Positions 2,955 to 22,676 of a stretch of 22,676 nucleotides of DNA are shown here, piece by piece (position 1 is the first letter of the stretch; each line of letters starts with the position of its first letter). The notes under the pieces were generated by a model. It saw only the letters and a program-made list of their open reading frames with translations. It did no database searches and was not told the origin of the DNA. Made by a program: the position numbers and the translations under genes. Location: positions 1-22,676 of IMG/VR virus record IMGVR_UViG_3300021085_001641. One strand, written 5' to 3'. Source of the DNA: a virus.

Positions 2955-3132
2955 TTTCCTTGGGGAATCATTTATGACTTATAAATGTTCGCGATGTCGA
3001 AAAGAGATTATGTCTATGAAGATGTCTCTCGGCACTCGCACTTGCCCTACCTGTAGTAACCCCTCAGAGACCCCAGTGCCAGACCCAGAAGATATTCTGG
3101 CAGCGCTGGAACACTCTAGAAAGGATAAGTAA
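2938..3132 (+). CDS. Small zinc-ribbon protein (64 aa)
   Basis: Two CxxC pairs, C17/C20 (KCSRCRK) and C36/C39 (TCPTCSN), with 15 residues between them, form a rubredoxin-like zinc ribbon. GAGGAGG at 2925-2931 places the start at 2938; ATG 2974 (MTYKCSRC) is a possible internal start behind GGGGA. After the ribbon is a proline-rich linker and a short helix. Such proteins often bind nucleic acid or a polymerase. The stop TAA overlaps the DNA polymerase start by one base (TAATG), so it is coupled to the polymerase gene. The exact role is unknown. Confidence 0.65.
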   Translation: MQTKVDFLGESFMTYKCSRCRKEIMSMKMSLGTRTCPTCSNPSETPVPDPEDILAALEHSRKDK

Positions 3133-4988: not shown

Positions 4989-5188
4989 TGAGTAGAGATA
5001 AATCACTTACCTCATATATCAATCGATTATTCGTTGATGAAGATAAAGGAAAGGAATGGGCGGAACGTAAAGCCCGTCATCCCCATATGAAAGGGTATGA
5101 ACTTAAAATGGGTTGGCGTAAAATTAAATACGCGCCTGAAGAACCCGAATTATTCTCTGTATCATTTAGTAAAAAGGAAGAATTGTAA
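4988..5188 (+). CDS. Small charged protein of unknown function (66 aa)
   Basis: The start ATG at 4988 shares one base with the polymerase stop (TGATG); an in-frame TTG at 4985 is less likely. The product is highly charged and basic in the middle (GKEWAERKARHPHMKGYELK) and predicted helical. It has no cysteines or membrane segment. No family is recognised. The stop TAA again overlaps the next start by one base. Its position between polymerase and exonuclease genes hints at an accessory replication role, but nothing in the sequence proves it. Confidence 0.6.
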   Translation: MSRDKSLTSYINRLFVDEDKGKEWAERKARHPHMKGYELKMGWRKIKYAPEEPELFSVSFSKKEEL

Positions 5189-5379
5189 TGCCTAAAAGAC
5201 TTGCGTTTGCTATTGTATTTGTTACGTTATCACTAATGTATATTGTACCTAGCTTTTATAACGAGATTAAAACAATGGAGCTAGGAATCTTTCATTACCT
5301 TTTAATGGGTATGTATGGTTTCTTAGTCTTTAATTTTTATCGCCTAGCATTTGTAGATATGAAGGACCGTTGGAAATGA
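5188..5379 (+). CDS. Small membrane protein with two predicted spans (63 aa)
   Basis: ATG 5188 overlaps the preceding stop (TAATG) and is preceded by AAAAAGGAAG. Two hydrophobic segments are visible, roughly residues 4-23 (RLAFAIVFVTLSLMYIVPSF) and residues 35-55 (IFHYLLMGMYGFLVFNFYRL), separated by a short polar turn, with a basic C-terminus. It should sit in the inner membrane. Its length and topology are compatible with a holin, but no lysis gene is adjacent, so I leave the function open. Its TGA overlaps the exonuclease start (ATGA). Confidence 0.65.
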   Translation: MPKRLAFAIVFVTLSLMYIVPSFYNEIKTMELGIFHYLLMGMYGFLVFNFYRLAFVDMKDRWK

Positions 5380-6119
5380 CACAGCTATTAGTTGATGCTG
5401 ATAGCATGGTGTATAAGTCTTGTTTCAATGTAGTTACTGTTGATGAAGCTTTTAATAAGTTCAAAACAAAACTTAACTACTTGAAAGATGAGATGTGGAC
5501 TGACGATATGGTTATCTTCCTGAAAGGGGTAGAGAACTTTCGTGCAGTAGACTTCCCGTTATACAAGGCTAATCGCCCCAAGGCCGACCCCTCTTCTATC
5601 GTGCCTGAGCTATATGCTATCCTTGAAGAAGAAGAGATTGGGATTCAATCAGATGGTTGCGAAGCGGATGACCTAGTTCGTTCAGCAGCACATGAGTCTC
5701 GCCATAATGAAGACCCTTTTGTTGTTGTTGGTATCGATAAGGATTTATTTTGTGATCCATTTACTTATTATAATCCAGATAAACAAGAACAGTTTGAGTT
5801 AACCCAGAAGGAAGCTGACTTTAATTATTACTCTCAGCTACTTACTGGTGACTCGACAGATAACATTAAGGGTCTCCATAGGGTAGGACCTAAGACAGCT
5901 GCAAAGCTTCTTGAGTCAACTTCCCAATGGAAAGACTTAGTCATTCGAGAATACAAAGAACGATTCGGAAAAGATTATGAAGATGTTTTGACATTCGTCG
6001 GACATTTGATTCACATTAAACGTAATGAAAAAGACTGGTTCAACATTGGCTTCGGTGATTTCTATGACCGAAAGATTGATGTAGATAAGGTCGGAAAGCT
6101 ATTAGGCTATGACATCTAG
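5376..6119 (+). CDS. 5'-3' exonuclease / flap nuclease (FEN/PIN family, T7 gp6-like role)
   Basis: The 247-residue product has the acidic cluster of phage and Pol I-type 5' nucleases: D7/D9 (LLVDADSMVY), the basic YKANRP (63-68) of the helical arch region, E96-A-D98-D99 (CEADDLV), D121-K-D123 (GIDKDLF), and GDSTDNIKG (158-166) leading into the H3TH DNA-binding motif RVGPKTAAKLL. It should remove RNA primers and degrade DNA from 5' ends, as gp6 does in T7. ATG 5376 lies nine bases after AAGGA and overlaps the preceding stop; the in-frame TTG at 5370 is rejected. It neighbours polymerase and helicase genes. Confidence 0.9.
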   Translation: MTQLLVDADSMVYKSCFNVVTVDEAFNKFKTKLNYLKDEMWTDDMVIFLKGVENFRAVDFPLYKANRPKADPSSIVPELYAILEEEEIGIQSDGCEADDLVRSAAHESRHNEDPFVVVGIDKDLFCDPFTYYNPDKQEQFELTQKEADFNYYSQLLTGDSTDNIKGLHRVGPKTAAKLLESTSQWKDLVIREYKERFGKDYEDVLTFVGHLIHIKRNEKDWFNIGFGDFYDRKIDVDKVGKLLGYDI

Positions 6120-6129
6120 GACATTTGAG

Positions 6130-6765
6130 ATGGGTGATTATACATTCATCAGGTATGACCGATTAAAGATTACAGCAACACCGCAACCGAAAGGGGGCGA
6201 TCGTAAGTTGTCTTCTTCGGAAGGTATTATCTGGTGTAAAGAGAGTCTATACAAGTCTCTCGAATTAAAACGTGGGTGGGAAGGGCCATTAACCCTTTGT
6301 ACTCGCGATGGTAAACGCTGGTATGTAGCATTTGAAACATATCAGAAGGACGATTACGTTGTTGACGAAGTTAATGACGGTGATTACGGTCATTGGGAAC
6401 TCCCTAATAAGAATCTAGTTGACCCTCATCATGCTGGTTTTGTTTACGAACTTAAAGATAAAACTACTAATCGTATATATGTAGGCTCAAAGAAATTCTC
6501 TCAACCTGATTGGAAACAATATACAGGTTCTGGAGACTTCTCTGAGTTAACTGTGGACGATGTTGAGGGGCGTATCTTATTTAGTCTCCCCACACCAGGC
6601 CAACTTAATGCGTATGAAATGAGAGAGATATATCTTCGTGATGCACTCTTTCGGGATGACTACGCTAATAAACAAGCTGAGAAACGCATTCGGTCGTCTC
6701 ATCTTGGGCTTGGCTTTGATCATACACGACACTTAGAAATTACTAAAGCGGAGCGATGGCTATGA
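6130..6765 (+). CDS. GIY-YIG (Seg-like) endonuclease with an extra N-terminal domain
   Basis: Residues 103-123 (GFVYELKDKTTNR, IYVGSKKF) match the GIY-YIG core of phage Seg-like nucleases, followed by the characteristic DWKQYTGSG, a catalytic-candidate Glu in NAYEMREIY (E163 or E166), and the closing DDYANKQ...RIRSSHLGLGF with the conserved Asn. Residues 1-100 are an additional beta-rich region I do not recognise. TAGGAC about eight bases upstream favours ATG 6130 (211 aa); ATG 6109 in the same frame would add seven residues and overlap the exonuclease stop. It occupies a place among replication genes where T7 has endonuclease I, so it may degrade host DNA or resolve junctions, or may be a homing nuclease. 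Confidence 0.75.
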   Translation: MGDYTFIRYDRLKITATPQPKGGDRKLSSSEGIIWCKESLYKSLELKRGWEGPLTLCTRDGKRWYVAFETYQKDDYVVDEVNDGDYGHWELPNKNLVDPHHAGFVYELKDKTTNRIYVGSKKFSQPDWKQYTGSGDFSELTVDDVEGRILFSLPTPGQLNAYEMREIYLRDALFRDDYANKQAEKRIRSSHLGLGFDHTRHLEITKAERWL

Positions 6766-6917
6766 TTAGCATTGACGAAGTTGTAGAGCAAGAAGATGGC
6801 TCTGCTATTTTAACTATCACAGCTAGGGGCGAGGAACTTGAAATGCTCGTGGCTGAAGGATTCTTATCTGTACTACGAAAGGCGATGGAAGATGTCTCAG
6901 GAATTGTACAAGACTAA
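6762..6917 (+). CDS. Small acidic protein overlapping the helicase start (51 aa)
   Basis: ATG 6762 overlaps the TGA of the nuclease gene (ATGA) and lies eight bases after GGAG. The frame continues to TAA at 6915-6917, overlapping the primase-helicase start by 26 bases in a different frame. The product (beginning MISIDEVVEQEDGSAILTI) is acidic and looks like a short beta-hairpin plus two helices. It is a real gene by its ribosome binding site and coupling to both neighbours; family and function are unknown. Confidence 0.55.
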   Translation: MISIDEVVEQEDGSAILTITARGEELEMLVAEGFLSVLRKAMEDVSGIVQD

Positions 6918-8520
6918 ATGTGAAAAGTGTGGCTCATCAGATGGCAATGCTGTCTATGATGATAACCACGCATATTGTTATGTGTGTCAACATTATACAC
7001 ACGATATAGGAAAGGAAAATGAAGTGGTATCATTGGCAGTTAATAATTCTGAACGGAATACTAGCCTTCATCGGGCCTCTGGTTTGGCTAGCCGTGGTTG
7101 CCGTGACAGGGGAATTACCAAGACCGTGGCAGAGCATTTCGGCGTTCTTTGTGAGTATGATTCCGACGGTAATATTTGCTCTTATCTCTATCCTTATAAT
7201 CGAGGGTCTGAATTGGTTGCGTACAAGGTACGTGAACTTCCGAAGACTTTCAGCGCGATTGGGGACTTTAAGGGCGTTGGTTTATTTGGTCAAAATGTTT
7301 TCCCTGCGGGTGGCAAACGTATTGTTATTACAGAAGGCGAGTTTGACGCCTTGGCGGTTGCTACTGCGTATGCAGAGAAAGGAACGATCTGGCCAGTAGT
7401 AAGCGTACCTAACGGTGCTACAGCTAAGAAGACTATCTTAGAACAACGAGAGTATCTCCGAAGCTTCGATGAAGTTATCTTTATGTACGATAACGATGAG
7501 GCAGGCCAAGCAGGTCTTGAGGAAGCTGTTAAGATTATTGGTTATGATAAAGCTAAGGTGACTGATTTAGGTAAGTATAAAGATCCTAATGAAGTCCTTA
7601 TGGATGCAGGCGGCGGTGAACTCCTTCGTATGATTTGGAACTCCCGCACTTACACTCCTGCTGGTATTGTTGCTGGAGAGGAAGTATGGAAACAATTAGA
7701 GGAATACAATGAAATTGAATCAATTCCTTATCCTCCTTGTCTTGATGGGCTTAATGATAAGCTTAAAGGGATGCGGCGAGGTGAAATTGCTCTGTGGACA
7801 TCAGGTACAGGCTCAGGGAAATCAACAATTCTCCGTGAGATCGTCGCTCATCTGCATAAAACTACAACCTCAAAGATAGGTATCGTAGCCCTCGAAGAGT
7901 CTCCCGCTGAGACTGCTCGTAAGCTTTCGGGTATGATGCTTAATCGTAATCCAGCTAAAGAAGAGATTCCCCTTGAGGAACTTCGAGTAGGTTTTGATTC
8001 TATCTTAGCTGATGGGCGTATACAAATACTCGACCATAACGGTTCCGTAAGCGGTGATGTCATTAGTCTTATTGAATTCTTATGCGCTTCAGGTTGTGAG
8101 TATATCTTCCTCGATCATATTACTATCTTAGTCTCAGAAGGGGCTGATAGCCTTACTGGTAACGAAGCTATTGATAAGATTATGAATGACCTCAGAGGCA
8201 TCTGTAAGAAGTGGAATGTTTGGATTGGTCTTGTATCTCATCTACGTAAGATGGGCAATGCAGGTCAGTCATTCGAAGATGGTAAGATTGCTTCCCTCGA
8301 CGACATCAAAGGCTCAGGCTCTATTAAGCAAGTATCTTACGATATCATTGCGTTTGCTCGTGATGTTGGTAATGAAGATGAGGATACTCGTAACACTATC
8401 CAAATGAAAGTCCTTAAGAGTCGTTACACAGGTCTTACAGGTCCTTGCGGGGAAGTACGTTACGACTACGATACGGGTCGTTTAAATAAACTTAATGGAG
8501 ATTTCGATGATTTTAATTAA
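6892..8520 (+). CDS. DNA primase-helicase, T7 gp4-like
   Basis: The 542-residue protein starts with a zinc-binding domain (C10/C13 and C29/C32), followed by a TOPRIM primase domain (VITEGEFDALAV at 145-156 with E148 and D152; YDNDEAGQ at 199-206). The C-terminal RecA-like helicase has Walker A SGTGSGKST (304-312, K310), catalytic E335/E336 in ALEES, Walker B LDHI (D408), motif H3 VSHL (H450) and GSGSIKQVS with R490 as candidate arginine finger. It should unwind DNA as a hexamer and prime the lagging strand. The start at 6892 uses AAAGG nine bases upstream; an in-frame ATG at 6838 would lie wholly inside the preceding gene. Length is close to T7 gp4 (566). Confidence 0.93.
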   Translation: MSQELYKTKCEKCGSSDGNAVYDDNHAYCYVCQHYTHDIGKENEVVSLAVNNSERNTSLHRASGLASRGCRDRGITKTVAEHFGVLCEYDSDGNICSYLYPYNRGSELVAYKVRELPKTFSAIGDFKGVGLFGQNVFPAGGKRIVITEGEFDALAVATAYAEKGTIWPVVSVPNGATAKKTILEQREYLRSFDEVIFMYDNDEAGQAGLEEAVKIIGYDKAKVTDLGKYKDPNEVLMDAGGGELLRMIWNSRTYTPAGIVAGEEVWKQLEEYNEIESIPYPPCLDGLNDKLKGMRRGEIALWTSGTGSGKSTILREIVAHLHKTTTSKIGIVALEESPAETARKLSGMMLNRNPAKEEIPLEELRVGFDSILADGRIQILDHNGSVSGDVISLIEFLCASGCEYIFLDHITILVSEGADSLTGNEAIDKIMNDLRGICKKWNVWIGLVSHLRKMGNAGQSFEDGKIASLDDIKGSGSIKQVSYDIIAFARDVGNEDEDTRNTIQMKVLKSRYTGLTGPCGEVRYDYDTGRLNKLNGDFDDFN

Positions 8521-9061
8521 GAATTATCTTGACAAAGAGTTTTGTAAAGGAGTTATTAATTACTGTGAAGAACAAGAACTTCAAGAAGCTTATGTAGGTC
8601 TTGAAAATGAAGGTAAAGTAGACGATAAAATAAGACGTTCTAAAACTTATTTTATTGGATGGCCTTTTTATAATTCCCCTTTCCTTAATGATCTTTATTT
8701 TAATCTCGAAATGAAATTAAAAGAAGCTAATAATATGATGTACGGTTTTAATCTTACTTCTTTCGAACCATTTCAATTTACTAAATACGAATCTGAGGAC
8801 AAAGGTTTTTATGATTGGCATATTGACTCAATGAACGATCGACCTACTAGCGATCGTAAATTATCCTTCTCGGTTTTATTAAATGACTCTTCCGAATTCA
8901 ATGGAGGTCAATTTAAATTCCGTGCGCCATTTAAAGAAAAGCTTTCTCAAGCGGGGGACTTATTAATTTTCCCTTCATTTGAAGAACATTGTGTTAAACC
9001 TGTTACTAAGGGAATTCGTTACAGCCTAGTCGGTTGGATGCGTGGTCCTTTAATGCGATAG
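8507..9061 (+). CDS. 2-oxoglutarate/Fe(II)-dependent oxygenase (prolyl-hydroxylase-like)
   Basis: The 184-residue product carries the iron ligands H105xD107 (YDWHIDSM) and H161 (EEHCVKP), with R171 ten residues later (GIRYSLVGWM) for 2-oxoglutarate binding, spaced as in PKHD-type hydroxylases. The intervening NGGQFKF and AGDLLIFPS are family hallmarks. The substrate (nucleobase, protein or small molecule) cannot be told. Start 8507 lies six bases after GGAG and overlaps the helicase stop. The gene is clearly richer in A+T than its neighbours: three lines I counted (8521, 8641, 8701) have 15-17 G+C in 60, against 24 at 8341 and 32 at 9241, which suggests acquisition by transfer. Confidence 0.85.
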   Translation: MILIKNYLDKEFCKGVINYCEEQELQEAYVGLENEGKVDDKIRRSKTYFIGWPFYNSPFLNDLYFNLEMKLKEANNMMYGFNLTSFEPFQFTKYESEDKGFYDWHIDSMNDRPTSDRKLSFSVLLNDSSEFNGGQFKFRAPFKEKLSQAGDLLIFPSFEEHCVKPVTKGIRYSLVGWMRGPLMR

Positions 9062-9073
9062 AAAGAGATTATT

Positions 9074-9547
9074 ATGAATCAAATAGTTCAGGATATTACT
9101 GTAGCCAGCCAAGCTACTCGGAAGAAATACAAGTATGATACTCTGTATATGCAGATTGCTGAAGCCGTAGCTGATATGTCTGTTGATCCTAAACACAAAG
9201 TTGGGGCTATCATTGTTAAGGATGGTATCTTAGCGGAAGGCTGGAACGGCGCTCCCGCAGGATTCCCTAACCAAACTCGGAATGACGATAACAAAACACA
9301 CCCGTGGATTATCCATGCCGAACAGAATGCATTAGCTAAATGCGCCCGTAAAGGTATTGCCTGCGAAGGCGCTACTATCTTTGTAACACTCGCACCCTGC
9401 CGTGATTGCGCTCGTATGATTATTCAGAGTGGAATTGCAGAAGTTGTTTACAGAGATTCTTTTGAAAAAGACAAAGAAGGGTTGCGTATGCTTGAAAAAG
9501 CAGGTATAATAATTGAGCATTACGCCCGTAAACCATATGTAGGATAG
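9074..9547 (+). CDS. dCMP deaminase
   Basis: The 157-residue protein has the zinc-dependent deaminase signature H81-A-E83 (IHAEQNAL) and P108-C109xxC112 (APCRDCARM), with the nucleotide-binding EGWNGAPAGFP (55-65) characteristic of dCMP deaminases. It converts dCMP to dUMP, feeding dTTP synthesis. No thymidylate synthase lies in this window. It begins behind AAAGAGA and is followed after eight bases by the RNA polymerase gene. Together with the HAD nucleotidase and DUF3310 protein it forms a small nucleotide-metabolism set around the replication genes. Confidence 0.9.
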   Translation: MNQIVQDITVASQATRKKYKYDTLYMQIAEAVADMSVDPKHKVGAIIVKDGILAEGWNGAPAGFPNQTRNDDNKTHPWIIHAEQNALAKCARKGIACEGATIFVTLAPCRDCARMIIQSGIAEVVYRDSFEKDKEGLRMLEKAGIIIEHYARKPYVG

Positions 9548-9555
9548 GACACTAT

Positions 9556-11886
9556 ATGAAAGACATTGTAGACCATTTGAGAGATAAGGTTGAAACTGTT
9601 AATCTAAATAACCCTAAAGCCAATCCAGGCTCTAAATTACTTAAAGATCATGTTCATCGTATCATGGAATTCGTTATGACTTCTTTAGATACTATCGGAA
9701 CACACTACAATAAATATGATGAGGAGTTCCCTTACGGGTACGCTCGTCTTACTACAGTGTCTACTGCTATTGGCCGCGAAGTTTGTCGTCGTATCGGTCT
9801 TGAGTATGGCAGCGAGAAACCTAAAGAGGATTTCCGTAATCATCTTCGTATTGGTGACTGCATTCTCGACTCAATCATAGTAACAGGCTACTCAGATCTC
9901 ATTAGAGGTTCTGAAGAAACTGAAGCGCGTATTGCGTTTATGACTGAGTTAAAGAAGCTTTACCCTGATACCTACAAAGAACACCCTGAGTATAATGTTA
10001 AGCTTCTTAACGTACCTTACGCTCTTAGGGCTACTAATAAGTGGTCATCCCTCAAAGACGAGTTGACTATTGATCGTCGGATTCTTATGGGTACTACTTT
10101 TCTTAAGCCTAAGATGGTTGGTAGTCTCTTTCAGAATACTGAAACAGGCCCTCGAAGTTTAATTAAAGGTTGGGATAAAGAGTATATCAGTTTGTTTAAC
10201 GATAATGATATGCGCTCATCTCCTTTTGTTAAGGGTATTAACACTATCCAACAAACAGCTTGGGGTATTAACCAAGACGTATTAGAAGCTGTTAAACGAC
10301 AATTCAATACTATCTTATACGAAGAAGGTGAGATGCCAGAAGAAGGCGACCCATCAGAAGTTAAGATTGCTTTGTCTAAATTAATTAAAGATGATAACGC
10401 TGAAACACAAGAAGCTTATAACGAAGCTACTCGGAAGTGGAATAAGAAACTCTTAGTCCTCCGCGCTCGTTCTAAGAATTATGCTCTCAAGACTATCTTG
10501 AATAAAGCAGAAGTCATTGGGACCTCTGTGTTCTGGCAGTTTGCTGATTGTGATTATCGTGGTCGTCTTTATTTCTTAGAACCCTACCTCAACTTTCAAG
10601 GTAATGACCTTGCTAGAGGTCTCATGATGTTCGCCGACGGGAAGCCGATCGGGGAGGAAGGTATTAAATGGCTTGCTATCCACACTGCTACCTGTTACAA
10701 TCAGTCTTACGAAATCGATAAGATCCCTGATTGGGTTACGGCAGACTATAAAGGTTATCTAGAGAGCGAAGGGCTTCGGTCTATCTCAGTAGATAAGATG
10801 AGCCTTCAAGATCGCGCTCGTTGGACTTACAATAATCTTGTCCTCATTAATAGCACTGCACAACAAGGTTTAATTCATGGTGAGAAACCGTTTAGCTTCT
10901 TAGCCGCTTGCATAGAGATGATTCATGTACAGAATGACGGAGCAGAACATATTACTTTTCTTCCAATCCCCATTGATGGGTCTAACAACGGTTGGCAACA
11001 CCTTGCTGCCATCTCTAAAGACCAACAGGCGGGTGAACTCGTGTCGCTCGTCGATACTGAAATCCAAAGCGACTTCTACGTTAAGGTCGCAAAGGAACTC
11101 CACAATGTTGTTAAGGAAGAAGAGAACACACGTTTAATTACCCTCATCGAGACAATGCCTATGAGAGATATCCGCAAGGGTATCGCTAAACGTGCGGCTA
11201 TGACTAGAGCATACTCCTGTGGCGCAAAGCGCATGTCTGTGAGCATGTATGCCGACTGCTATAAGGAGGGGTATACAGATAAGTATGGTATCACTATGAT
11301 CGACTGTATTGGTTTATCGCAGTATATCATTAAGGCTATCGATAGGGTTTGCCCTGGTCCTCTAGCTACAATGGCGTTCCTTCAGGAAGCTGCTGTGCAT
11401 CAGGTGGGGTATCGTAAAGAGATTGACGATAAGAATGTTCATCTTCAATGGTGGACTCCCTCAGAGTTCCTAGTGATATACCAACGTAACCGACAAGAAG
11501 CTATTAAGCATCGCGGTCGTATTGCTGGGAAACAGATTAAACACGTTGGTCGAGTAGACACACATGTTCCTGACATTGGTGCTTACATCTCTGGTATCTC
11601 CCCTAACTTTATTCACTCTCAAGACGCTGCGCACTTAATGTTAGTAGCCTCTGATTGGGAAGGTTCTTTCGGGGCTGTACACGATAGCTTCTCTACACAC
11701 GCTTGCGATGTTGATAAGCTTGGACAACTAGTACGTGATTACTTTGTTCGACTATACGATTACGAAAACTTTTTTACTGAAATTAAGGAGGCATTACTGT
11801 CAGAGCCAGAAGGCTTTGAAGCGGAGGTTCCAATCGGATCTCTTAATGTCAATGATGTTTATGATTCAAAATACTTTTTCTGCTAG
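9556..11886 (+). CDS. T7-like single-subunit DNA-directed RNA polymerase
   Basis: The 776-residue protein has every polymerase motif of the T7 family: DCDYRGRLYF (D333 to R337), LNFQGNDLARGL, GKPIGEEG, motif A D474 (PIDGSNNGWQH), motif B K545 and Y553 (KRAAMTRAYSCG), SPNFIHSQDAAHL (682-694) and motif C H709-D710 (AVHDSFSTH). It would transcribe phage genes from its own promoters, which I could not identify. It is ~100 residues shorter than T7 RNAP (883), mostly in the N-terminal part. Two oddities: Lys replaces the motif B Arg four residues before K545, and YS replaces YG after Y553. It lies downstream of replication genes, as in phiKMV-type phages rather than T7. Confidence 0.95.
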   Translation: MKDIVDHLRDKVETVNLNNPKANPGSKLLKDHVHRIMEFVMTSLDTIGTHYNKYDEEFPYGYARLTTVSTAIGREVCRRIGLEYGSEKPKEDFRNHLRIGDCILDSIIVTGYSDLIRGSEETEARIAFMTELKKLYPDTYKEHPEYNVKLLNVPYALRATNKWSSLKDELTIDRRILMGTTFLKPKMVGSLFQNTETGPRSLIKGWDKEYISLFNDNDMRSSPFVKGINTIQQTAWGINQDVLEAVKRQFNTILYEEGEMPEEGDPSEVKIALSKLIKDDNAETQEAYNEATRKWNKKLLVLRARSKNYALKTILNKAEVIGTSVFWQFADCDYRGRLYFLEPYLNFQGNDLARGLMMFADGKPIGEEGIKWLAIHTATCYNQSYEIDKIPDWVTADYKGYLESEGLRSISVDKMSLQDRARWTYNNLVLINSTAQQGLIHGEKPFSFLAACIEMIHVQNDGAEHITFLPIPIDGSNNGWQHLAAISKDQQAGELVSLVDTEIQSDFYVKVAKELHNVVKEEENTRLITLIETMPMRDIRKGIAKRAAMTRAYSCGAKRMSVSMYADCYKEGYTDKYGITMIDCIGLSQYIIKAIDRVCPGPLATMAFLQEAAVHQVGYRKEIDDKNVHLQWWTPSEFLVIYQRNRQEAIKHRGRIAGKQIKHVGRVDTHVPDIGAYISGISPNFIHSQDAAHLMLVASDWEGSFGAVHDSFSTHACDVDKLGQLVRDYFVRLYDYENFFTEIKEALLSEPEGFEAEVPIGSLNVNDVYDSKYFFC

Positions 11887-12482: not shown

Positions 12483-12526
12483 AAAAGCCCCCGCAAGATT
12501 CCATATAGGATCTTGTGGGGGCTTTT
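12483..12526. terminator. Bidirectional intrinsic terminator between convergent clusters
   Basis: AAAAGCCCCCGCAAGATTC (12483-12501) pairs with 12508-12526 (ending GGGGGCTTTT) in a stem of 19 pairs including two G-U, with a six-base loop. The right side runs into TTTTCTTATTATT for plus-strand transcripts. The A-run at 12483-12486 supplies a T-run for minus-strand transcripts. It sits between the ends of the plus cluster (12477) and minus cluster (12543) and should end transcription from both. Confidence 0.92.
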
Positions 12527-12527
12527 C

Positions 12528-12545
12528 TTATTATTATTATTATTA
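12528..12545. repeat. (TTA)6 trinucleotide repeat containing the stop codon of the 1173-aa gene
   Basis: Six uninterrupted TTA units run from 12528 to 12545. On the minus strand they read TAA six times, the first being the stop codon of the polymerase-like gene and the others in-frame stops behind it. This gives fail-safe termination and also makes the T-rich tail of the plus-strand terminator. Confidence 0.85.
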
Positions 12546-15500
12546 ACCATCAGCGTTAGGGATCATAAACCCTAGGCGCTTTTGTTTTTTAACTGCATCC
12601 ATAACTATGGAGCGGTCTGAGTTAGAGTTAGAGTCATTAGATCGTGTAAATAAAGAAGCACGTTGATTTTTAAAAGCTTTATCATTTAAATAATAACGCC
12701 TAATAAAATTAAGATACTGCTCTTTACTAACAACAAGTACATCATTTTCGCGTGTACGATAGTCTTCATATCCGAGTTCGTCTTTAGCAGCCTCAATGAT
12801 GGCCTCTACTTTTTTAACAAAGTTACCTTGTTTAAGTGAAGGTAGAATAGTGTCATCATCAGGGTTCTTAATACGATTCTCTAAGAAGTCAACTTGTTCA
12901 TCCATGTACTGGAGGAAGCCGTAGAAGTCGCTTCCTTCTTCCATACGGATTTCGTTAGGCATTTCCGCAGCGGCTTGGTTAATAGATTCCGTAAAATCTT
13001 TTTCCATAGCTGCGTGCATATTCCAATCAAGAGCTTTTCGAGTACCTACTTCATTCATAAAGTAAGTGAACATCAAAAGATTTTTGTTCGACATAATAAA
13101 GTTATCATGCACTGGAACAGCATTAGCTGGTTCGCCGATAAGTTCGGTAAGCCCATTATAAGACTCAACGTTAACTACTGTCTCACGGTACTGACCCTTA
13201 ACAGGTCCGACCATATTAGTTACAGCAGTGTAAGCATTGGGAACGTATGTTGTTTTCTTTATTGTTCCATCATCTTGTTTGTCTTTAAATGTCTTTGTAA
13301 CACCGCGAGCCGCAAAGTCTTCTTCACGAGAAACATCCATCAAGTCTAAACCTGTACTAGTCATAAGACCTGATTTACGGGTAACAAGTTTTTGTTTACC
13401 GAAAGGAATAGTCTCCCCAAAGTAACCTATTGGGCGAGGCTTAGTACCTAAAAAGCCCTGAATAAGAGCCATTGCACTTGGTACATTACGCTGCGCTGAG
13501 TCAGTAACTCGAGCCAGGGCATCTTTAAACACCTCAGCCAACACAATAGACGCGCCTTCAGTATCGTAGCCTTCAGCATTAAATGCTTCGAATAGCTCTG
13601 GATACTTACCAAGCAAAGCACGACCAGCATCTTTATGTGCTGAGATAGCTTTACCGTAGTCTGTAACCATGAGAACTTTTTTACCAAAGTCATCTGCGAA
13701 TTTGGGACGAGTTTCTAAAAGGTCACTAACGGTAGCACGAATAGTACCGCCGTGGTTGTATGCACGACCTTCTTTACCTTGAACACTATCGAAGTAATCT
13801 TCGAATACATGTTCCGCTTCGGCTGCGAAGTACGTACGAGGCGTACCATCGGCTAGAAAGTCTAATGTACGAACATCAAAAGAGCCTTCAGTAAACTCTG
13901 AATCATTGCCATAAAAAATACCAGTACGCTTAAGAACTTGTGTCTCACCAATATCCATAGCAAGGAATGTACGACCAGCAGAACGTTGGTCAGCTTCTAG
14001 TAATACAGAATCATTAAGTTGAGACTGATTAACGTAGCTATGTGCCGCCATATAAGCTGAGGTACGCATACCCCAGTTTTTATGATTCAAACTTTTAAAT
14101 ACATCCATAAGTTTTTCTTGACTTTCTGGAGGAAGACCCATAAATGCGTTTGGGACATTAGGAGTCTCGAATATTGTTTTAAGTAAACCACCAATCTCAG
14201 CGTATTGTCTTAGTTTATTCTCAGTAATATCAGCAAGAGTCCTTTCAGGGAGATGCCGACTAGCTGTAGAGCTAAGGGCAGACTCAATAGAGAACAACAA
14301 ATCTAGCTCGTTCATCTCATTTTGAGACAACGATTTGAGAGCTTCTAAGTTACCAACATTAGGAATTTCAGAATCAGAAAGCAATGAAACACTCGGGTCT
14401 CGTCGCTCTAATTTAGTAACAGTAATTAACGGTCGATTAACGAATGTCATAATCTGACGGATATGAGTGTAACTTTGTGGGTTAAAATCATCCGAAACAG
14501 GGTATGCACGATTAACAGAACGGTCTACCTTATAGGGTAAATAACGAGAACGACCATCAGCCGAAATATTTTTCGCATAGTTGATAGTACGCTTTCGAGT
14601 TCTGCGATTAGTCTCTTCCGCATTAAGAGCTTCTGGATCGCCTGCTAAAATCTTATTGCGATCGATATCTAAAAGATTGTCTGCAATAGGTGCAAATTGA
14701 GGATATTGTTCCGCAAAGTTCCCATCCGAAGCTACTAAGTTAATAAAGTTTAAAGCATTCAATCGACGACGATCATATTGAACAGCGACTGAACCTAAAT
14801 TTAGTTTATAATTTTCTAGTGCCTTCGGCAAACGATCTGTAGCACCTTTAGCAAGATCTTGCCCCATAAGTTCTGAACGAGCGCCGACAAAACCTTTTTT
14901 AGAAGCAGGGACTAATTGTGAACGAGTAGGTAATTCATTAGGATCTACACTTAAAAGATAATCTTTAGCACCCATAATCATTCGACGAGATTTAGGCCCA
15001 GCTAAATAAACTTTTACTTTAGGGTTTTTAGTTCTAGGCGCTGTTTGGTCTTCAAGATTTTGACCTTTAGGTAACGGGGTTGTTGTACGGGTTTCTTCAA
15101 TAAGATAACCATTATCAACCAAAGCTTGAGTTATAATTTGACTTGCTTTAAAAGCATTGCTTTCATTATAAGGTACAATAGCCTCTGTAGGCAAACCAAA
15201 TTCATTAAGAGGCGTGGGGTGGACTGTCTCATAAAGAGATTTACCTAACATCGACACAAAAGTATTTGCTTCTACACCACCTTCTTGAAGTGCCTTACTA
15301 GCTTCACCGATCTGTTGATCGATGGGGCTTTCCATAAGACCACCAATATTAAATTCTTCAATAGTATCAAACATACTATTAGCTTCGGAATCAAACTCTT
15401 TTTGTTTAAGAGCCATAACACCGAGACGAGTGAAGCTCATTACACCAGCGTTAAGAACACGGTTGTAATCGGTAGTCCCTAAAAGATCAGCCGCTACTTC

Positions 15501-16064
15501 CATATTAGAAACAGCTAAACCATCTTGTCGGTTTACTCGACCTTCCGAAAGAGATTTAGTAAGAGGAAGACGCATATGGAATAGCGCACCTGTAGCAGTA
15601 GGACGCATACCTTCTTTTGTTATTTGTTTTAGCTCATCTTCTGTTTGAAAATCTACTGGAACAGTCCGATACAAACTCTCAGCGGCCTGTTCTGTTACTT
15701 CTTCTTGGTAACGTTCACGGCCTTGCTCTGTTGGAAGTACTTCACCTTCTTCGGCTTGCATCGTAGTAATATCAGGCATAATACCTGCTACGGGTTCGGC
15801 CCCTGGTACAATACGGCTTTGTTGAGTAGTATCAAGTGTTTGAAAGTTTTGACCACTCAACGCTGCACGTACTGACTCTAAAGGATCTTCTTCTACAGGC
15901 ATTTCAAGAGGAGCAGCAGGCTGTGCAATAGGTAATTGCCTTTCAGCAACAGCCTGTTCTGCTTCCTCTCTCTGTAATAGAAGATCTTCTTCCATTTGTG
16001 ATTGTTGTTCTGGAGTCAAAGCACCCGTGGGAGTAATACTTCCTGGGATATATCTCTTCGCCAT
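12543..16064 (-). CDS. Putative virion-associated single-subunit RNA polymerase (N4 vRNAP-like, divergent)
   Basis: In this 1173-residue protein I see the motifs of T7/N4-type RNA polymerases in order. P510YKVD514, NRAY (R519) and FNPQ (527-530) parallel T7 PYNMDWRGRVY...FNPQ. Motif A is EADQRSAG (D692, G697), matching DGSCSG of T7. Motif B is KKVLMVTDYG with K795 and Y803 eight residues apart, as in T7 K631/Y639. Motif C is VPVHDNFIM (H986-D987). The spacings D692-Y803 (111) and Y803-D987 (184) are near those of T7 (102, 173). The motif B Arg is absent at its usual place. Residues 1-150 are Gln/Glu/Pro-rich. Start: AGAGGAG upstream, TAATG overlap with the ejection-protein gene, implying co-production and packaging. 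If wrong, it is an internal virion protein. Confidence 0.62.
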   Translation of the reverse strand: MAKRYIPGSITPTGALTPEQQSQMEEDLLLQREEAEQAVAERQLPIAQPAAPLEMPVEEDPLESVRAALSGQNFQTLDTTQQSRIVPGAEPVAGIMPDITTMQAEEGEVLPTEQGRERYQEEVTEQAAESLYRTVPVDFQTEDELKQITKEGMRPTATGALFHMRLPLTKSLSEGRVNRQDGLAVSNMEVAADLLGTTDYNRVLNAGVMSFTRLGVMALKQKEFDSEANSMFDTIEEFNIGGLMESPIDQQIGEASKALQEGGVEANTFVSMLGKSLYETVHPTPLNEFGLPTEAIVPYNESNAFKASQIITQALVDNGYLIEETRTTTPLPKGQNLEDQTAPRTKNPKVKVYLAGPKSRRMIMGAKDYLLSVDPNELPTRSQLVPASKKGFVGARSELMGQDLAKGATDRLPKALENYKLNLGSVAVQYDRRRLNALNFINLVASDGNFAEQYPQFAPIADNLLDIDRNKILAGDPEALNAEETNRRTRKRTINYAKNISADGRSRYLPYKVDRSVNRAYPVSDDFNPQSYTHIRQIMTFVNRPLITVTKLERRDPSVSLLSDSEIPNVGNLEALKSLSQNEMNELDLLFSIESALSSTASRHLPERTLADITENKLRQYAEIGGLLKTIFETPNVPNAFMGLPPESQEKLMDVFKSLNHKNWGMRTSAYMAAHSYVNQSQLNDSVLLEADQRSAGRTFLAMDIGETQVLKRTGIFYGNDSEFTEGSFDVRTLDFLADGTPRTYFAAEAEHVFEDYFDSVQGKEGRAYNHGGTIRATVSDLLETRPKFADDFGKKVLMVTDYGKAISAHKDAGRALLGKYPELFEAFNAEGYDTEGASIVLAEVFKDALARVTDSAQRNVPSAMALIQGFLGTKPRPIGYFGETIPFGKQKLVTRKSGLMTSTGLDLMDVSREEDFAARGVTKTFKDKQDDGTIKKTTYVPNAYTAVTNMVGPVKGQYRETVVNVESYNGLTELIGEPANAVPVHDNFIMSNKNLLMFTYFMNEVGTRKALDWNMHAAMEKDFTESINQAAAEMPNEIRMEEGSDFYGFLQYMDEQVDFLENRIKNPDDDTILPSLKQGNFVKKVEAIIEAAKDELGYEDYRTRENDVLVVSKEQYLNFIRRYYLNDKAFKNQRASLFTRSNDSNSNSDRSIVMDAVKKQKRLGFMIPNADG

Positions 16065-19000
16065 TATAAATCTCCTCTGAGAGCTTTGTCTAAATAGTCT
16101 TCAGCTGCGACAGCCCCTTGATGGAGCGGCCCAACTACAGGTAATGATTTAAAGCCTTGTCTAGCGGCTCCTGGGAGATCACCTTCAAGGGCTTTGTTAA
16201 ATGTAGTCCCAATACGAGACATGTATGATATAGCTGGCATTTCGCCTTCAAGGAAATTACCAATAGATTCGGTTGCACCCGTAGAACGTTGCGGATAAAG
16301 AGGATCGAACATGTCGTATATACGTTCACCAGTGCCTAGAAGGCCTGATGCATATACTGCACGTTGGAATTTCTCTTCGTCATCTAACCAATCTGGTGCT
16401 TCACCATACTTAACGATATCCCTAATGTATTGTGCAAGGAAACCAAATGCGATAAGTAAGGCAATTGTTTTAATGCTTTCCGCTCGCGCACCGAGTGTAC
16501 GACCTGCAATTCCCTTATAGATACTTGGGAGAATAGTTGAGGTAAACGAAGCAATGAAACCTTGAAATGATGTTAGCAAAGCTAAGCGAGGATCGTTATA
16601 AAACTTTGGACGATTACCTACACGAGGATGTGCAACTGCTTGTTCAGTAAATTTTACAGAACCTACTAAAATTTCATTTTCAATAGCTTCAGAAATCTCA
16701 GGGCTAACTTGACCTTCGCTACGATAAGCTTCCAGTAGCAAGTCGGTATTAACGTTGACTGCTGCAAGCTCTTCTTTAGCTTCTAAGTACCCAATAGTGT
16801 TGGAATCCATTTCATCAAGGACTTGAATACGTTCTAGCAAGTAATCACCAAAGACACTTAAACGACCTGAACGACTAATATTAGTAAAACCTTGAAGGAA
16901 GATAAGCTTAAAGAAAGCATTCATAAGATTACTCTTACGACCAGAAGTATCATCTACGCCAGCACGTTGCATCGCACTTTGTTGTTGATCGAGATACCCT
17001 GTACTAGCAAGTCGTTCACGACCACCCTTAAGATAGCTCTTACGTTGAGTTAAGCCTGCTTTAGACGACATCTCGTTAATATAGTTAGCCATTTCTAGAC
17101 CAGCTGTTTTAGCTAATGGTGCAATTTGTTTAAACACTTGATCACGTGTTAACAATCGCGGCAACAAACTAAGTTCAACAAGACTTGACAACGTAGCCAA
17201 AGGTAATTGATTTAACGTAGTAAAGAAAATAATATTTTGTTGAGTCTTCCGAAGAAAATCATTTTCAATACGACCATAACGACCACGTTTCATTTCCATA
17301 TAGTCATTAAGCTCAGCCGCAAGGAAGTGCATTTGTTCTTTTGTAACTTTACCATTCTTATGAGCAAGCTTAAGCATACCAGCAATCTTGCGACCACCAG
17401 AACCGAAAAACTTATCGTTAATATTTTTATGTGCGGTAGCTGAATTTAATGCTGCCATATTATAGAAGATATTATTATTAAAGAATTCACTAAAGTCAGG
17501 ATCTTTATGGAGTTCCTTAATACTTAGCATAGGGCCAGTATCAAAGTCACCTTCAAAAGAATTAAGGCTTTTATCCATAGCATCTTCGGGAGTGCTAATA
17601 CTATTAATATCACGGATATCTTCAGCCATAACTTGAGCTTGTTGAGGCGCAACCTTATACTTAGTTACTAACAACTCTTTAAATCCTTGAAAGTTTTTCT
17701 CAAGAGCAGCGCGATCAATTGTTTTGGTATCCATAGTAGTACCTAACTTACGACCAGAAGCCCGATCAAGATTAGCGAGTTTACTTGCGAGGTCAAGAAT
17801 TGGTTTTTGAATGTTATAATATTGATTATCAGTTCTTAGAGATAATTTATTATCAAGAGCTATTTGATGAAGGTCAAGATTGCCTTTAATAGAACCAGCT
17901 TTTTGCAACAAGACTTTTACGAAACGTTGTACTACGGGATCATAAACAATTTTAGATACAGCTGCAGTGCCGTTTACTTTAAGATCTTGTTGAGCTTGCT
18001 CTTCAATAGGGACCATAGAATTTAAAGCGCCCAAACGAAGTTGCAAAGCTACTTCATCATCGGCTCCTGAATTAATATTATTAGCTCCAAGTATAGAGCC
18101 TAAATCACGAAGCTCATCGATATCAATAAATTTATTTAGAGTATTCGACTTGAAACCTTCAAAGAAACCTTTAACGCCTGCATTACGGGCATACCCGATA
18201 GCACTACGAAACAAACCTTTTTGTTGTCGCTGTGCGTATTCTTCTTCACCAAGCTCTGCAAGACTTTGATCTTGGAGATCAAGTGTTTTCTTTTCATACT
18301 CAGTAATAATATCATCTTTACTACGAACACGTTTATATTTAGAACGCTCACGGTCTTGAAAACGAACATCTCGATTGCCTTCATCAGCAGTCTTTTGATG
18401 TTTCCCAATAGAATTCTTAACAGACCCATAATCAATAACAGCACCTGCAGTACCGAATGCACCACCCAAAACACCGCCAGCTACTGCTGCGTTAAGAAGA
18501 CGAGAACGAACTTCATTCTGATCTACCTCTTTCATTTCGCCAGCCATGGCTAAAAGTTCCTGGGCAGATTCAGTTACGCCTTCGCCAAGCATACCAATAC
18601 CAGCGGCCTTACCAATACCTTTAGCAGCATTATTGATAGCAATATCGCTTTCAAGTGCTTTCAAGGTGTCTCTATTAAGACTACGCAAGGCAGTTTGAAA
18701 TGACTTAGCTGTAAGTTCCTCTGCCTCTTCAAGCGGTATATTACGTTTACTAGCAACCTGTTTAGCAACTTTTTGCATTGAAGTTTTAGTTAAAATAGCA
18801 CCAGCTTGGCCGCCAATTTTAACACCAAGAACATCAAGCGCAGCCTGTGCTATGCCAGAGAACAAAGCAGCGGCTTCGTTTTTATTATCTTCAGGTTGTT
18901 CGTTATATACCATACCTGCATATACTGAAGCAGGAGAAACAAGAGAAGCGCCGCCTGTTACTGGTGCGAGTGCCGTAGCGATAATCGTATTAGCCATATA

Positions 19001-19939
19001 AGGAGCAGATTGAGCAGCATTAATCAGCATAAATTCTGTAAAGTCCATAATACTGTTTAATCGCCACTTGCCTTTTTCGTCGAAAGCAGCTTGATTATCA
19101 TTAATTGGAAGAGACTCAATCTCATGCTTTAATCGTTTTTGATGAGCATCACCATAACGACTCATTGAGTCTACGTCAAACATCTCACCAAACATTTCGA
19201 TAGCACCGTAAGCACCTTCGATAACACCAAGTTTACCTAGCTCGAAAGCTGTTCCAATCATACTTCTTGCTTTATTATTAATTGTACGATCAGCTTGACG
19301 GAAAGCTACTCCACTAAACGCATTAGGGCGTTCAGCGTATTCTGCTTCGTTCATAGCAAGAGGCTTGACTTCACCTCGGTTACTGCCTGCATAACGATCT
19401 TCCATAAGCTCAAGGGAAGCTTTATCCCATTCATTAGCAAGACCATTCTGAAGACGTTTACGACGATCAACATTACCAACAATAAAAGCTGTAACATCAT
19501 CCGCCGAAGAATATTCAGTAGGCATGACGAGATTATGATATAATAGTTTTTGTTGTAAGCTTTCGCCTTTATCGTTTTGAAGATCACCTAATAAACGACC
19601 ACCAGTAGCATCTACTTCACCAGAAGAAACTACTTTATTAAAGCCATTATTATTAATAAGCTTTAAAACATTATCGTTAAGTCGTGCGCCGCCATAATCA
19701 CCACGTACAACTCCGCTCCCCGTGTAATGCTCTACTTCTAAAGCATCTACTCCAGGAATTCTAATAGATTGATAATACTCTCCGTCTTCGCCTTTAATAG
19801 GTTGTCCTAAACGAACTGTATCAGGGTCGGTAAGAGTGAGTCCCGTAGCCTCCCCGATAGCGTTACCAGCGTCAATATTAGAGGAAGAGCCAAACAAAGC
19901 TTGTTCAGCCTCCATAAGGAGTTCATTAATATCTGCCAT
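16064..19939 (-). CDS. Large internal virion/ejection protein with SNase-like N-terminal domain
   Basis: This 1291-residue protein carries, at residues 35-145, a pattern like staphylococcal nuclease: TDPDTVRL (D40, cf. DGDT), SIRIPGVDALE (R60, D65, E68, at the exact spacing of SNase R35/D40/E43) and DATGGRLLGDL (R115, cf. R87), then GESLQQKLLYHNLV resembling the family's closing helix. Residues 300-505 hold several Ala/Gly-rich hydrophobic segments (NTIIATALAPVTGGASLV, AAVAGGVLGGAFGTAGAV) and EGVTESAQEL, typical of ejected proteins; further hydrophobic stretches lie at 901-928 and 1155-1172. It probably forms part of the channel or accompanies DNA into the cell. The start has GAGGAAG upstream; the stop overlaps the polymerase-like gene by three bases. 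Confidence 0.7.
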   Translation of the reverse strand: MADINELLMEAEQALFGSSSNIDAGNAIGEATGLTLTDPDTVRLGQPIKGEDGEYYQSIRIPGVDALEVEHYTGSGVVRGDYGGARLNDNVLKLINNNGFNKVVSSGEVDATGGRLLGDLQNDKGESLQQKLLYHNLVMPTEYSSADDVTAFIVGNVDRRKRLQNGLANEWDKASLELMEDRYAGSNRGEVKPLAMNEAEYAERPNAFSGVAFRQADRTINNKARSMIGTAFELGKLGVIEGAYGAIEMFGEMFDVDSMSRYGDAHQKRLKHEIESLPINDNQAAFDEKGKWRLNSIMDFTEFMLINAAQSAPYMANTIIATALAPVTGGASLVSPASVYAGMVYNEQPEDNKNEAAALFSGIAQAALDVLGVKIGGQAGAILTKTSMQKVAKQVASKRNIPLEEAEELTAKSFQTALRSLNRDTLKALESDIAINNAAKGIGKAAGIGMLGEGVTESAQELLAMAGEMKEVDQNEVRSRLLNAAVAGGVLGGAFGTAGAVIDYGSVKNSIGKHQKTADEGNRDVRFQDRERSKYKRVRSKDDIITEYEKKTLDLQDQSLAELGEEEYAQRQQKGLFRSAIGYARNAGVKGFFEGFKSNTLNKFIDIDELRDLGSILGANNINSGADDEVALQLRLGALNSMVPIEEQAQQDLKVNGTAAVSKIVYDPVVQRFVKVLLQKAGSIKGNLDLHQIALDNKLSLRTDNQYYNIQKPILDLASKLANLDRASGRKLGTTMDTKTIDRAALEKNFQGFKELLVTKYKVAPQQAQVMAEDIRDINSISTPEDAMDKSLNSFEGDFDTGPMLSIKELHKDPDFSEFFNNNIFYNMAALNSATAHKNINDKFFGSGGRKIAGMLKLAHKNGKVTKEQMHFLAAELNDYMEMKRGRYGRIENDFLRKTQQNIIFFTTLNQLPLATLSSLVELSLLPRLLTRDQVFKQIAPLAKTAGLEMANYINEMSSKAGLTQRKSYLKGGRERLASTGYLDQQQSAMQRAGVDDTSGRKSNLMNAFFKLIFLQGFTNISRSGRLSVFGDYLLERIQVLDEMDSNTIGYLEAKEELAAVNVNTDLLLEAYRSEGQVSPEISEAIENEILVGSVKFTEQAVAHPRVGNRPKFYNDPRLALLTSFQGFIASFTSTILPSIYKGIAGRTLGARAESIKTIALLIAFGFLAQYIRDIVKYGEAPDWLDDEEKFQRAVYASGLLGTGERIYDMFDPLYPQRSTGATESIGNFLEGEMPAISYMSRIGTTFNKALEGDLPGAARQGFKSLPVVGPLHQGAVAAEDYLDKALRGDL

Positions 19940-19956: not shown

Positions 19957-22676
19957 TTATTTAACATTCATCAGGCCTTTCTTATTAGCCAACATTTTTT
20001 CTAAGAATACAGTAAACGTATTTTCACCTTCGCTAGGTGCGCGAAGACCTAGTGAGTTAAGTTGTTCAGGTGTGAACTGATTGAACACATTGTAAGCGTG
20101 TGATACGCGATCTTCAAAAGACGCATTAACAAAACCAGTATCGCTATTACGACGTTCACGGGCAATATTATTTTTAATTTTACCGAAAACATTAGCGGCT
20201 GCTTTTGGAGTTACGCCTTCAAAGGCATCACCAAGCTCTCTGCGTTGAAGCATTACTCGGTCTACCGCAGTAGACATAGCACCTGGAGCCATGTTAGAAG
20301 CATCACCTTTAAGACCTGTAACAAACTTTTGCATCACAGAAGGAATTAACTGTTGTGCTGCACGGAAATCAGCTGGATCCGAAAGGTCTAAACCAAATTG
20401 ATCAACAACAGCACTAAGCTCTGATGACACATAAGAAACAAGAGTAGGTGAATCACTTACATCAAGACCTGTATCGCTCAATGCAGTACGTAAAGTTGTT
20501 TGCCCATACTCGTCAAGCTTGATTTGATTGCTAATAGCACTTTCACGGCGCTTTTCTAAAGCAGCTAGTTTAGCTTTGTTAAGAGATGCTTCGTCTTTAG
20601 CCTGTTGGCGTTCAAGTAAACGTTCTTCGTCTACCCGTTGTTGTCTTTCTTTTTGACCTGCAACATAGCCCATAGCAGCTTGTCGGGCTGCTACGTCATT
20701 GTCGTAACCAAGAAGTTTGTTTACACCGTAGTATATACCTGCGGTAGCAATTGATTCTGCATCGAATACCTTTTTAAAAGCATTACCAAGACCGCCTTTA
20801 AGCGCCTCAAAAAATTTAGAACTAGTTTTAGACCCAGCAGGAGGTGTTTTGCCATTTTCAGGAGTTTTTATTGTTTTTGGTTTATCAGCAGTAAGAGTTT
20901 TTGTTTCAACAGGTTTTGGGGGCGCAATAGTAATATCCGAACCAGCTACTTTGATAGGTGCAGAAGCTTCGATAGGAACTGTTTCACTACCCATTGGCAC
21001 TTGACTCATACGTCTTGCTAACTCTCTTTGAGCGGTTTGTTGTTCTATTGTGGTTCTGCCGAAATTAGCAATTTCAGATAATTCTGAATCACTAATATCT
21101 GTCATAGTTGCAGGACCACCAGCTGCGGATTGGAAGAAACCTAAGCCTGGGCGATCCGCATATAGTTCTTCTTCAGTAAAACCTTCTGGATTAGTATAAG
21201 AAACATCACCACTACCTTGTTGAAAACCTTGAGGTACTTCTTGCATAGGCATAGGTACTTCCATACCATAGTTAGCCATAGTCTCATCAAGAGCAGCTTG
21301 TTTCATATTAGCGTCAGCTGTATCTTCAAGATGTTTGAGACCAATCTTTTCAATAGTATCGCGGGTACGGTTTTTAGATTTTTGTTCGTAACCCATTTGT
21401 TTAACCGCTAGCTTTTCCATCTGATCCATAGCAGGATCTTTCGGGGGAGCCATCATCATCATACTAGGTACTTCCATAACACCTCCTGCAAAGCCTTGTA
21501 GCGATTGTTCACCGCCACCATACTTACCTGTTAAATTTCGTTTATGATATGCATCTAATTCTGCATCATCGTACATTACTGCTTCTTTTCCGTTTACAGG
21601 AATACCATTAGCTTCCGCCATGCGATTCTTAGCTCGACCTTCATCAATCATTTTTTCAATGACAGGAATATTCTGAGGGTCTTGAGCAGCTGCAGCGGGA
21701 ATAACCGCTTCCCCTGGAGTAAGCATAGCTGGAACAGTATCGCTTGGACCTGCTTCAGGATTAGTAGGGGTTGACTGTGCTGAATCAAGAACAACACGAC
21801 CTTGAGATTGCGCTCTCATAGCGTCTGTAGGAGACATCATAGGTACTTCCTCTTGGGGTTGTTCTAGTGTTTCTACGGGTGGGACATCAGAAGCTTCAGC
21901 CGACATTCCAAAGAAATCTTTAATACTGTCAAAGAAAGAAGGTTCTTCTTTTTCTTCTTCAGGGACATTAAAAGAAACTTCATCTTCTTCGATTTCTTGT
22001 TTAGAGTACGAGCCAGCTTTGCCTCGCCGTTCATCTTCTAAAGCTTTCCGAAGAGTCCCTGGTCCAATAATTCCATCATCTTCGACACCAAGTTCTTGTT
22101 GAACTGCTTTAGCACCTTGCGTACCGCCGCCGTTAGCGTTATAAATCTGTTGAAGATTTTCAGGAAGAAAATCAATTACCGTTGCGCCTTCAATTCTATC
22201 ATTATCAATATATTGTTCAAAAACTTTTGGAATAGATTTCCCTAGTACTTTACGACCATGAATAAAATTAAGTAGTTCAGCGGCTCTAGGATTGGCTTTA
22301 AGTTCTTCAGGGGTCGGCATATTTTCTTTGCCAAAGGATTTTTCAATAATTTCCGCATATCGAAATAAAGCTTGTACACCTGCAAGTGAACCCATTAAAC
22401 TTTGAGAAGCACCTTTTAAATCATTATTTTTTAAAGAATCTCTTAAAGCACTAAATTGATTAATACCGCCGCCACCAACATTATATGCTAAAGACACTGT
22501 TGCCGTTTGAACTTGGGGTGAAAGATTATTAAAATCTTCACCTATAAAATTTTGAGCATCAGGTATAGCGGTAGCTTTAATATATTGAATCATTTTAGCT
22601 TTAGCTTCTTCTTTAGTCACAGTAGGGTTGCCAAGATCTTTACGAGCTTGTGCTACGCCTTCGTCACTTACAGGAT
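19957..22676 (-). CDS. Virion protein with GH24-type lysozyme region and peptidoglycan-binding motif (5' end missing)
   Basis: The frame is open through the right edge of the window, so the GTG at 22620 is internal and at least 905 residues are encoded. The start of the visible part (VTKEEAKAKMIQYI, then LSPQVQTATVSLAYNVGGGG and FSALRDSLKNND) matches the second half of phage T4-type lysozymes; the catalytic Glu would lie upstream. AVQQELGVEDDGIIGPGTL (near 22030-22150) is a peptidoglycan-binding repeat. DTVPAMLTPGEAVIPAAAA resembles a motif common in phage tail and internal proteins. A Met/Pro-rich linker and a charged coiled coil (QKERQQRVDEERLLERQQ) follow. It likely digests the cell wall during DNA entry, like T7 gp16 in role, though with a different enzyme fold. 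Confidence 0.75.
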   Translation of the reverse strand, partial: PVSDEGVAQARKDLGNPTVTKEEAKAKMIQYIKATAIPDAQNFIGEDFNNLSPQVQTATVSLAYNVGGGGINQFSALRDSLKNNDLKGASQSLMGSLAGVQALFRYAEIIEKSFGKENMPTPEELKANPRAAELLNFIHGRKVLGKSIPKVFEQYIDNDRIEGATVIDFLPENLQQIYNANGGGTQGAKAVQQELGVEDDGIIGPGTLRKALEDERRGKAGSYSKQEIEEDEVSFNVPEEEKEEPSFFDSIKDFFGMSAEASDVPPVETLEQPQEEVPMMSPTDAMRAQSQGRVVLDSAQSTPTNPEAGPSDTVPAMLTPGEAVIPAAAAQDPQNIPVIEKMIDEGRAKNRMAEANGIPVNGKEAVMYDDAELDAYHKRNLTGKYGGGEQSLQGFAGGVMEVPSMMMMAPPKDPAMDQMEKLAVKQMGYEQKSKNRTRDTIEKIGLKHLEDTADANMKQAALDETMANYGMEVPMPMQEVPQGFQQGSGDVSYTNPEGFTEEELYADRPGLGFFQSAAGGPATMTDISDSELSEIANFGRTTIEQQTAQRELARRMSQVPMGSETVPIEASAPIKVAGSDITIAPPKPVETKTLTADKPKTIKTPENGKTPPAGSKTSSKFFEALKGGLGNAFKKVFDAESIATAGIYYGVNKLLGYDNDVAARQAAMGYVAGQKERQQRVDEERLLERQQAKDEASLNKAKLAALEKRRESAISNQIKLDEYGQTTLRTALSDTGLDVSDSPTLVSYVSSELSAVVDQFGLDLSDPADFRAAQQLIPSVMQKFVTGLKGDASNMAPGAMSTAVDRVMLQRRELGDAFEGVTPKAAANVFGKIKNNIARERRNSDTGFVNASFEDRVSHAYNVFNQFTPEQLNSLGLRAPSEGENTFTVFLEKMLANKKGLMNVK

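Follow-up and report, generated by a model that had tools for sequence, protein, structure and literature searches.

A compact relative of the N4 virion RNA polymerase is predicted beside ejection-type protein genes in a CRP-7-like phage

The N4-type packaged RNA polymerase (RNAP) is known as a protein of 3000–3600 residues that is characteristic of the Schitoviridae. In phage N4, this virion RNA polymerase (vRNAP, gp50) transcribes the early genes, including the T7-like RNAPII (PMC4496689). N4 gp50 to gp52 are ejected, and the vRNAP combines a likely membrane-spanning N-domain with an autoinhibitory C-domain; how so large an enzyme traverses the tail has yet to be explained (PMC12633501). The genes are arranged in the order gp52, gp51, gp50, converging on the replication genes. 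Phages related to phiKZ and Thermus phage P23-45 (the latter through a tape-measure fusion) likewise carry an RNAP of their own in the particle, but these enzymes are related to cellular multi-subunit RNAPs (PMC10770324), whereas the protein described here, for which packaging is also proposed, is of the T7/N4 type.

This protein, P0001, is encoded in a 22,676-base viral fragment, the whole of which is referred to below as the window. At 1173 aa it is much shorter than the vRNAPs of seven schitoviruses (3022–3632 aa). A sequence-only reading had placed its open reading frame at 12543–16064; the frame exists, but it lies on the minus strand (16064..12543), the plus strand being full of stops there. 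From its profile match, predicted fold and catalytic residues, P0001 was annotated as a compact vRNAP-like single-subunit RNAP. Its ATG overlaps the stop codon of a 1291-aa gene (TAATG), with GGAG upstream. The 1291-aa product (16064..19939, minus strand) resembles ejection proteins and matched PHROG 6958, 'virion structural protein', at 2.6e-22. Next to it, a 905-aa probable ejected protein (19957..22674, minus strand), open at the window end, contains a lysozyme-like stretch near its visible N-terminus (PF00959, 9e-4; PHROG 7 endolysin, 8e-6). The plus strand encodes a DNA polymerase, an exonuclease, a primase-helicase, and a separate T7-like RNAP of 776 aa (9556..11886; PF00940, 2e-58; PHROG 414, 2e-110), presumably the second-stage enzyme. 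The plus- and minus-strand halves of the window converge on a GC-rich inverted repeat flanked by runs of A and T (12483–12526), which resembles a terminator and separates the converging transcripts of the early genes and the vRNAP. A strong hairpin, GGGGATGGCT-TTCG-AGTCATCCCC, was also found between two early genes at 2096–2143, possibly a terminator or an RNA-processing site.

The T7-like RNAP and the 1291-aa protein of the window match Roseobacter phage CRP-7. Gene order is identical in this phage, where the place of P0001 is taken by a gene on the minus strand encoding the 'hypothetical' protein gp33 (QBQ72826.1, 1235 aa); of the RNAPs, the CRP-7 publication reports the T7-like one only (PMC6918029). 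BLASTP between P0001 and gp33 was not significant (E 0.16), the best segment being the motif C region, with the motif A region also seen. An iterative HMM search joined P0001, gp33, and other members in one family, in the alignment of which gp33 is approximately 14% identical to P0001. Fifty IMG/VR loci were collected with the T7-like RNAP as the anchor, and more were added from later scans. A member was present in all 26 loci in which the sequence beyond the T7-like RNAP, on its downstream side, extends for 1.2 kb or more, a count that reflects position and constancy rather than independent homology because the HMM was built from the same members. No relatives of P0001 were found in a scan of GTDB genomes. 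The window phage groups with the unclassified CRP-7-like phages, outside the Schitoviridae. Searches of the open-licence literature yielded no account of a compact vRNAP of the N4 type. The 'virion RNA polymerase' of the Poorviridae (vB_PunP_Y3 ORF30, PMC11654794) was considered as an earlier compact case and rejected, as it comprises approximately 3421 aa. In OR779980, the gene described as encoding this Poorviridae polymerase spans 24147–34412 and is annotated as 'DdrB-like ParB superfamily'.

As a single sequence, P0001 gave no direct match in Pfam, PHROGs, PDB sequences, an INPHARED tblastn search, or an IMG/VR scan. When the 26-member family was compared by hhalign with a profile of 11 schitovirus vRNAP domains, a match with a probability of 97% and an E value of 4e-11 was obtained over 821 columns. 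The decoys (T7-like RNAP, DNA pol A, ejection protein, primase, and reversed profiles) gave E values of at least 0.036, and one further reversed decoy gave 0.023. The P0001 family showed no significant similarity to the family of the T7-like RNAP (E 0.036) or that of the DNA polymerase (E 0.1) of the same phage, and P0001 further differs from T7-type enzymes in being encoded in a virion operon. Against full-length vRNAPs, the sole match was the central RNAP domain (E 5e-10); the N-domain (E 0.69) and C-domain (E 0.32) of N4 vRNAP and gp51 (E 0.74) were not matched. One homologue (L011), which adjoins a T7-like RNAP 86% identical to that of the window, matched PHROG 2206, 'virion RNA polymerase', at 5e-9. 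The family HMM found nothing credible among PDB sequences: the best hit was an unrelated 33-residue match (0.0035), followed by RNAP1 (6dt7/6dt8/6dta, 0.57), which we take to be a subunit of N4 RNAPII. P0001 is thus almost certainly a single-subunit RNAP of the T7 superfamily, and by profile comparison its closest sequence relative is the catalytic domain of N4 vRNAP. It lacks the membrane N-domain and the autoinhibitory C-domain and therefore resembles a natural 'mini-vRNAP'.

All of the motifs quoted in the sequence-only reading were found in P0001, namely PYKVD..NRAY..FNPQ (residues 510–530), EADQRSAG (690–697), KKVLMVTDYG (795–804), and VPVHDNFIM (983–991). Conservation was counted in the 26-member family alignment using P0001 numbering; the other members are 14–34%, mostly 14–22%, identical to P0001. 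D692, G715, R743, Y803, and D987 are invariant (26/26), and R519, G804, and G883 are conserved in 25 members. Residue 795 is Lys in 18 members and Arg in 8, the CRP-7 group being among the latter. The hhalign alignment paired P0001 exactly with N4 at R519-R424, D692-D559, K795-K670, Y803-Y678, G804-G679, and D987-D951. Of the six catalytic positions of N4, four were among the nine most conserved of the 1173 columns (hypergeometric p ~2e-8). Because so divergent a family keeps D692, Y803, and D987 without exception, R519 almost always, and Lys or Arg at residue 795, the motifs represent more than chance. P0001 has the catalytic-residue set of a single-subunit RNAP: two Asp residues, the motif B Lys and Tyr, and the DxxGR Arg.

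On the minus strand, motif A (residues 689–698, containing D692) is encoded at 13971..14000, motif B, the O-helix equivalent (residues 787–805, with D791, K795, Y803, and G804), at 13650..13706, and motif C (residues 982–992, containing D987) at 13089..13121. The region equivalent to DxxGR/TxxGR (residues 510–536, with D514, R519, FNPQS, and R536) is encoded at 14457..14537. The string PYKVD is not itself the DxxGR motif; the motif is anchored by R519 within NRAY (N4 R424, T7 R425), and its D/T position is occupied by D514. The FNPQ of P0001 aligned with YNPQ of N4, and NPQ varies within the 26-member family.

The motif B Arg, named beforehand as the weak point of the polymerase assignment, is indeed out of place. 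At this position (residue 791), the family has Asp in 12 members, Lys in 13, Ile in 1, and Arg in none, whereas Arg is found in all 11 schitoviruses (N4 R666, T7 R627). We regarded this Arg as usual for the T7 superfamily and not as fold-defining. R743 (13836..13838, minus strand) is invariant in the P0001 family, whereas the schitovirus residue aligned to it varies; R743 may stand in for the charge of the absent Arg. As the domains of the large proteins and the motif B Arg were looked for and not found, P0001 was placed outside the giant schitovirus vRNAP family. The replacement of this Arg by Asp or Lys, the change of K795 to Arg in the CRP-7 group, and the unconserved NPQ would also fit a degenerate polymerase that was kept as a structural ejection protein, with the fold retained and catalysis lost. 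We consider this very unlikely, as R519, D692, Y803, G804, and D987 rank with the best-conserved residues of a family that has otherwise drifted to approximately 14–20% identity, a pattern indicative of selection on catalysis.

An AlphaFold2 model of P0001 was generated from the family alignment alone, with no templates and no N4 sequences in the MSA. The model was of moderate confidence (pLDDT 70.1, pTM 0.69; 257 residues under pLDDT 50). Motif A was modeled in a beta strand (689–693) and motif B in a helix (787–802), and D987 was positioned at the turn joining strands 982–985 and 988–991, a predicted placement that is as expected of a palm and an O-helix. All 50 of the Foldseek matches listed for the model were single-subunit RNAPs, with E values of 4.5e-12 for mitochondrial RNAP, 1e-10 for T7 RNAP, and 7e-10 for N4 mini-vRNAP. 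VIA gave Z scores of 22.0 to T7 RNAP and, over 729 residues, 20.5 to N4 mini-vRNAP. A CRP-7-type homologue (L016), closely related to gp33, was predicted to adopt the same fold (pTM 0.69, E 1.5e-12, Z 23.1), so that gp33, despite its low identity to P0001 and the Arg at the K795 position, agrees with P0001 in gene order, position, family, and, through this homologue, fold. The lack of a right-hand palm had been named in advance as a refuting outcome, and the models of P0001 and L016 both showed the polymerase fold, so that P0001 is predicted to be a right-hand polymerase. P0001 shares this fold and the catalytic residues with T7 and mitochondrial RNAPs (Z up to 22) as well as with the Schitoviridae vRNAPs (PHROG 2206; PDB 2PO4, 3C2P, 9PNR); the fold scores alone do not separate the N4 type from the T7 type, and it is the sequence profile, shared with the RNAP domain of the vRNAPs, that does so. 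Since family A DNA polymerases have the palm as well, we also weighed whether P0001 might be a template-dependent polymerase that shares this fold but makes a different product, as a primase or a DNA polymerase would. The E value of 0.1 to the DNA polymerase family of this phage against 4e-11 to vRNAP, the exclusively RNAP matches in the Foldseek list, and the Tyr at 803 that is common to RNA polymerases make this explanation extremely unlikely.

As in N4, the P0001 gene lies downstream of the ejection genes and is the first gene on the minus strand, convergent with the replication genes, and the window phage shares with N4 and the Schitoviridae both a vRNAP-type gene beside ejection proteins and a second, T7-like RNAP. 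From the operon with ejection-type proteins and the N4-like position, we infer that P0001 is packaged in the virion. An active single-subunit RNAP that is made late from the phage genome, remains unpackaged, and serves the late genes of the same infection would account equally for the fold and the catalytic residues, which are independent of packaging. This alternative is unlikely given the TAATG coupling to the gene for an ejection-type protein, a nearest sequence relative that is a packaged enzyme encoded at the same genome position, and the T7-like RNAP that is already available to the phage for later stages. A packaged compact polymerase served by neighboring ejection proteins would be the simplest reading.

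The neighboring proteins were also compared with N4 gp51 and gp53, and no homology was detected. The 1291-aa protein family gave a weak match to the N-domain of N4 vRNAP (hhalign E 0.0044, probability 8%; decoys E at least 0.27), which is compatible with the functions of one large protein being split between two but is too little to serve as evidence. Tentatively, the functions of N4 vRNAP may be carried here by separate proteins, a free polymerase and a membrane-spanning ejection protein equivalent to the N-domain; the split form may resemble a state before fusion, and the polymerase may be exchanged as a module with the virion block.

Taken together, P0001 is probably a packaged, early-transcribing compact vRNAP. 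Expressed late from the operon of the ejection proteins, P0001 would enter the capsid alongside the proteins of 1291 and 905 aa and leave with them through the tail. In the cell, it would transcribe the early plus-strand genes, including that of the T7-like RNAP, which would then take over transcription. The neighboring ejection proteins would do in trans what the N-domain of N4 vRNAP does in cis. Packaging, ejection, catalytic activity, use of early promoters, and this role of the neighbors in trans are all presumed.

The sequence-only reading had regarded the pairing of a virion polymerase with a T7-like RNAP as unusual. This emphasis did not hold, since N4 itself follows its vRNAP with the T7-like RNAPII (PMC4496689), so a second RNAP is expected; the core of that reading, a compact vRNAP-type polymerase, was retained on the basis of the N4 vRNAP profile match and the predicted right-hand fold. 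The second enzyme is a single chain in the window phage and a heterodimer in N4. What is truly unusual is the size of P0001, the absent N- and C-domains, the absent motif B Arg, and the occurrence outside the Schitoviridae.

No hairpin promoters of the N4 type (C-GNA-G) were found in CRP-7 or in the window, which is without the left end of the genome, and the promoter rules may differ; the N4 rule gave one match, in another locus (L067). A scan of the CRP-7 intergenic regions for repeats and for hairpins with loops of 3–5 nt detected a small number of hairpins but none repeated as a promoter. At the left end, a single candidate emerged, GCGTC-ATA-GACGC at 378–390 in the leftmost intergenic region; it has a GC-rich 5-bp stem and a 3-nt loop and is possibly a vRNAP promoter of a non-N4 type. 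In addition, a 19-bp repeat, AGTCCNNTATTAAAAGGRA, occurs four times in CRP-7 (0.33 expected), at 2028, 7149, and 14766 on the plus strand and at 38260 on the minus strand. One copy lies just upstream of the T7-like RNAP gene, and the repeat is a candidate promoter of that enzyme. A shortened form of AGTCCNNTATTAAAAGGRA was not enriched in the window.

Comparison with related loci revealed a mosaic structure. One locus (L007) is 89–95% identical to the window across the DNA polymerase, exonuclease, primase, deaminase, and RNAP, whereas its vRNAP is approximately 17% identical over 705 aligned positions. In another (L009), the exonuclease, primase, and RNAP are 82–87% identical, compared with 55% for the 1291-aa protein and 30% for the vRNAP. 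When window positions 1–11886 were compared with these two loci, a sharp junction was observed near the convergent terminator (12483–12526). In the loci seen, the vRNAP-like polymerase was always replaced by a homologue and never lost. These patterns suggest that the polymerase is exchanged along with the virion block and that the crossover point is the convergent terminator or close to it.

CRP-7 is an isolate and its gp33 is still annotated as 'hypothetical', so the compact-vRNAP reading can be tested at once. Compact vRNAPs would be small enzymes, possibly with new promoter rules, and could explain how transcription starts in CRP-7-type phages free of a host enzyme. If widespread marine phages carry a naturally compact form, it would reveal the parts needed for packaging and passage. 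A kind of gene so far annotated only as 'hypothetical' would become a small relative of the packaged, injected RNAP of N4, suggesting that abundant ocean phages outside the family of N4 likewise enter the cell with a transcription enzyme of their own.
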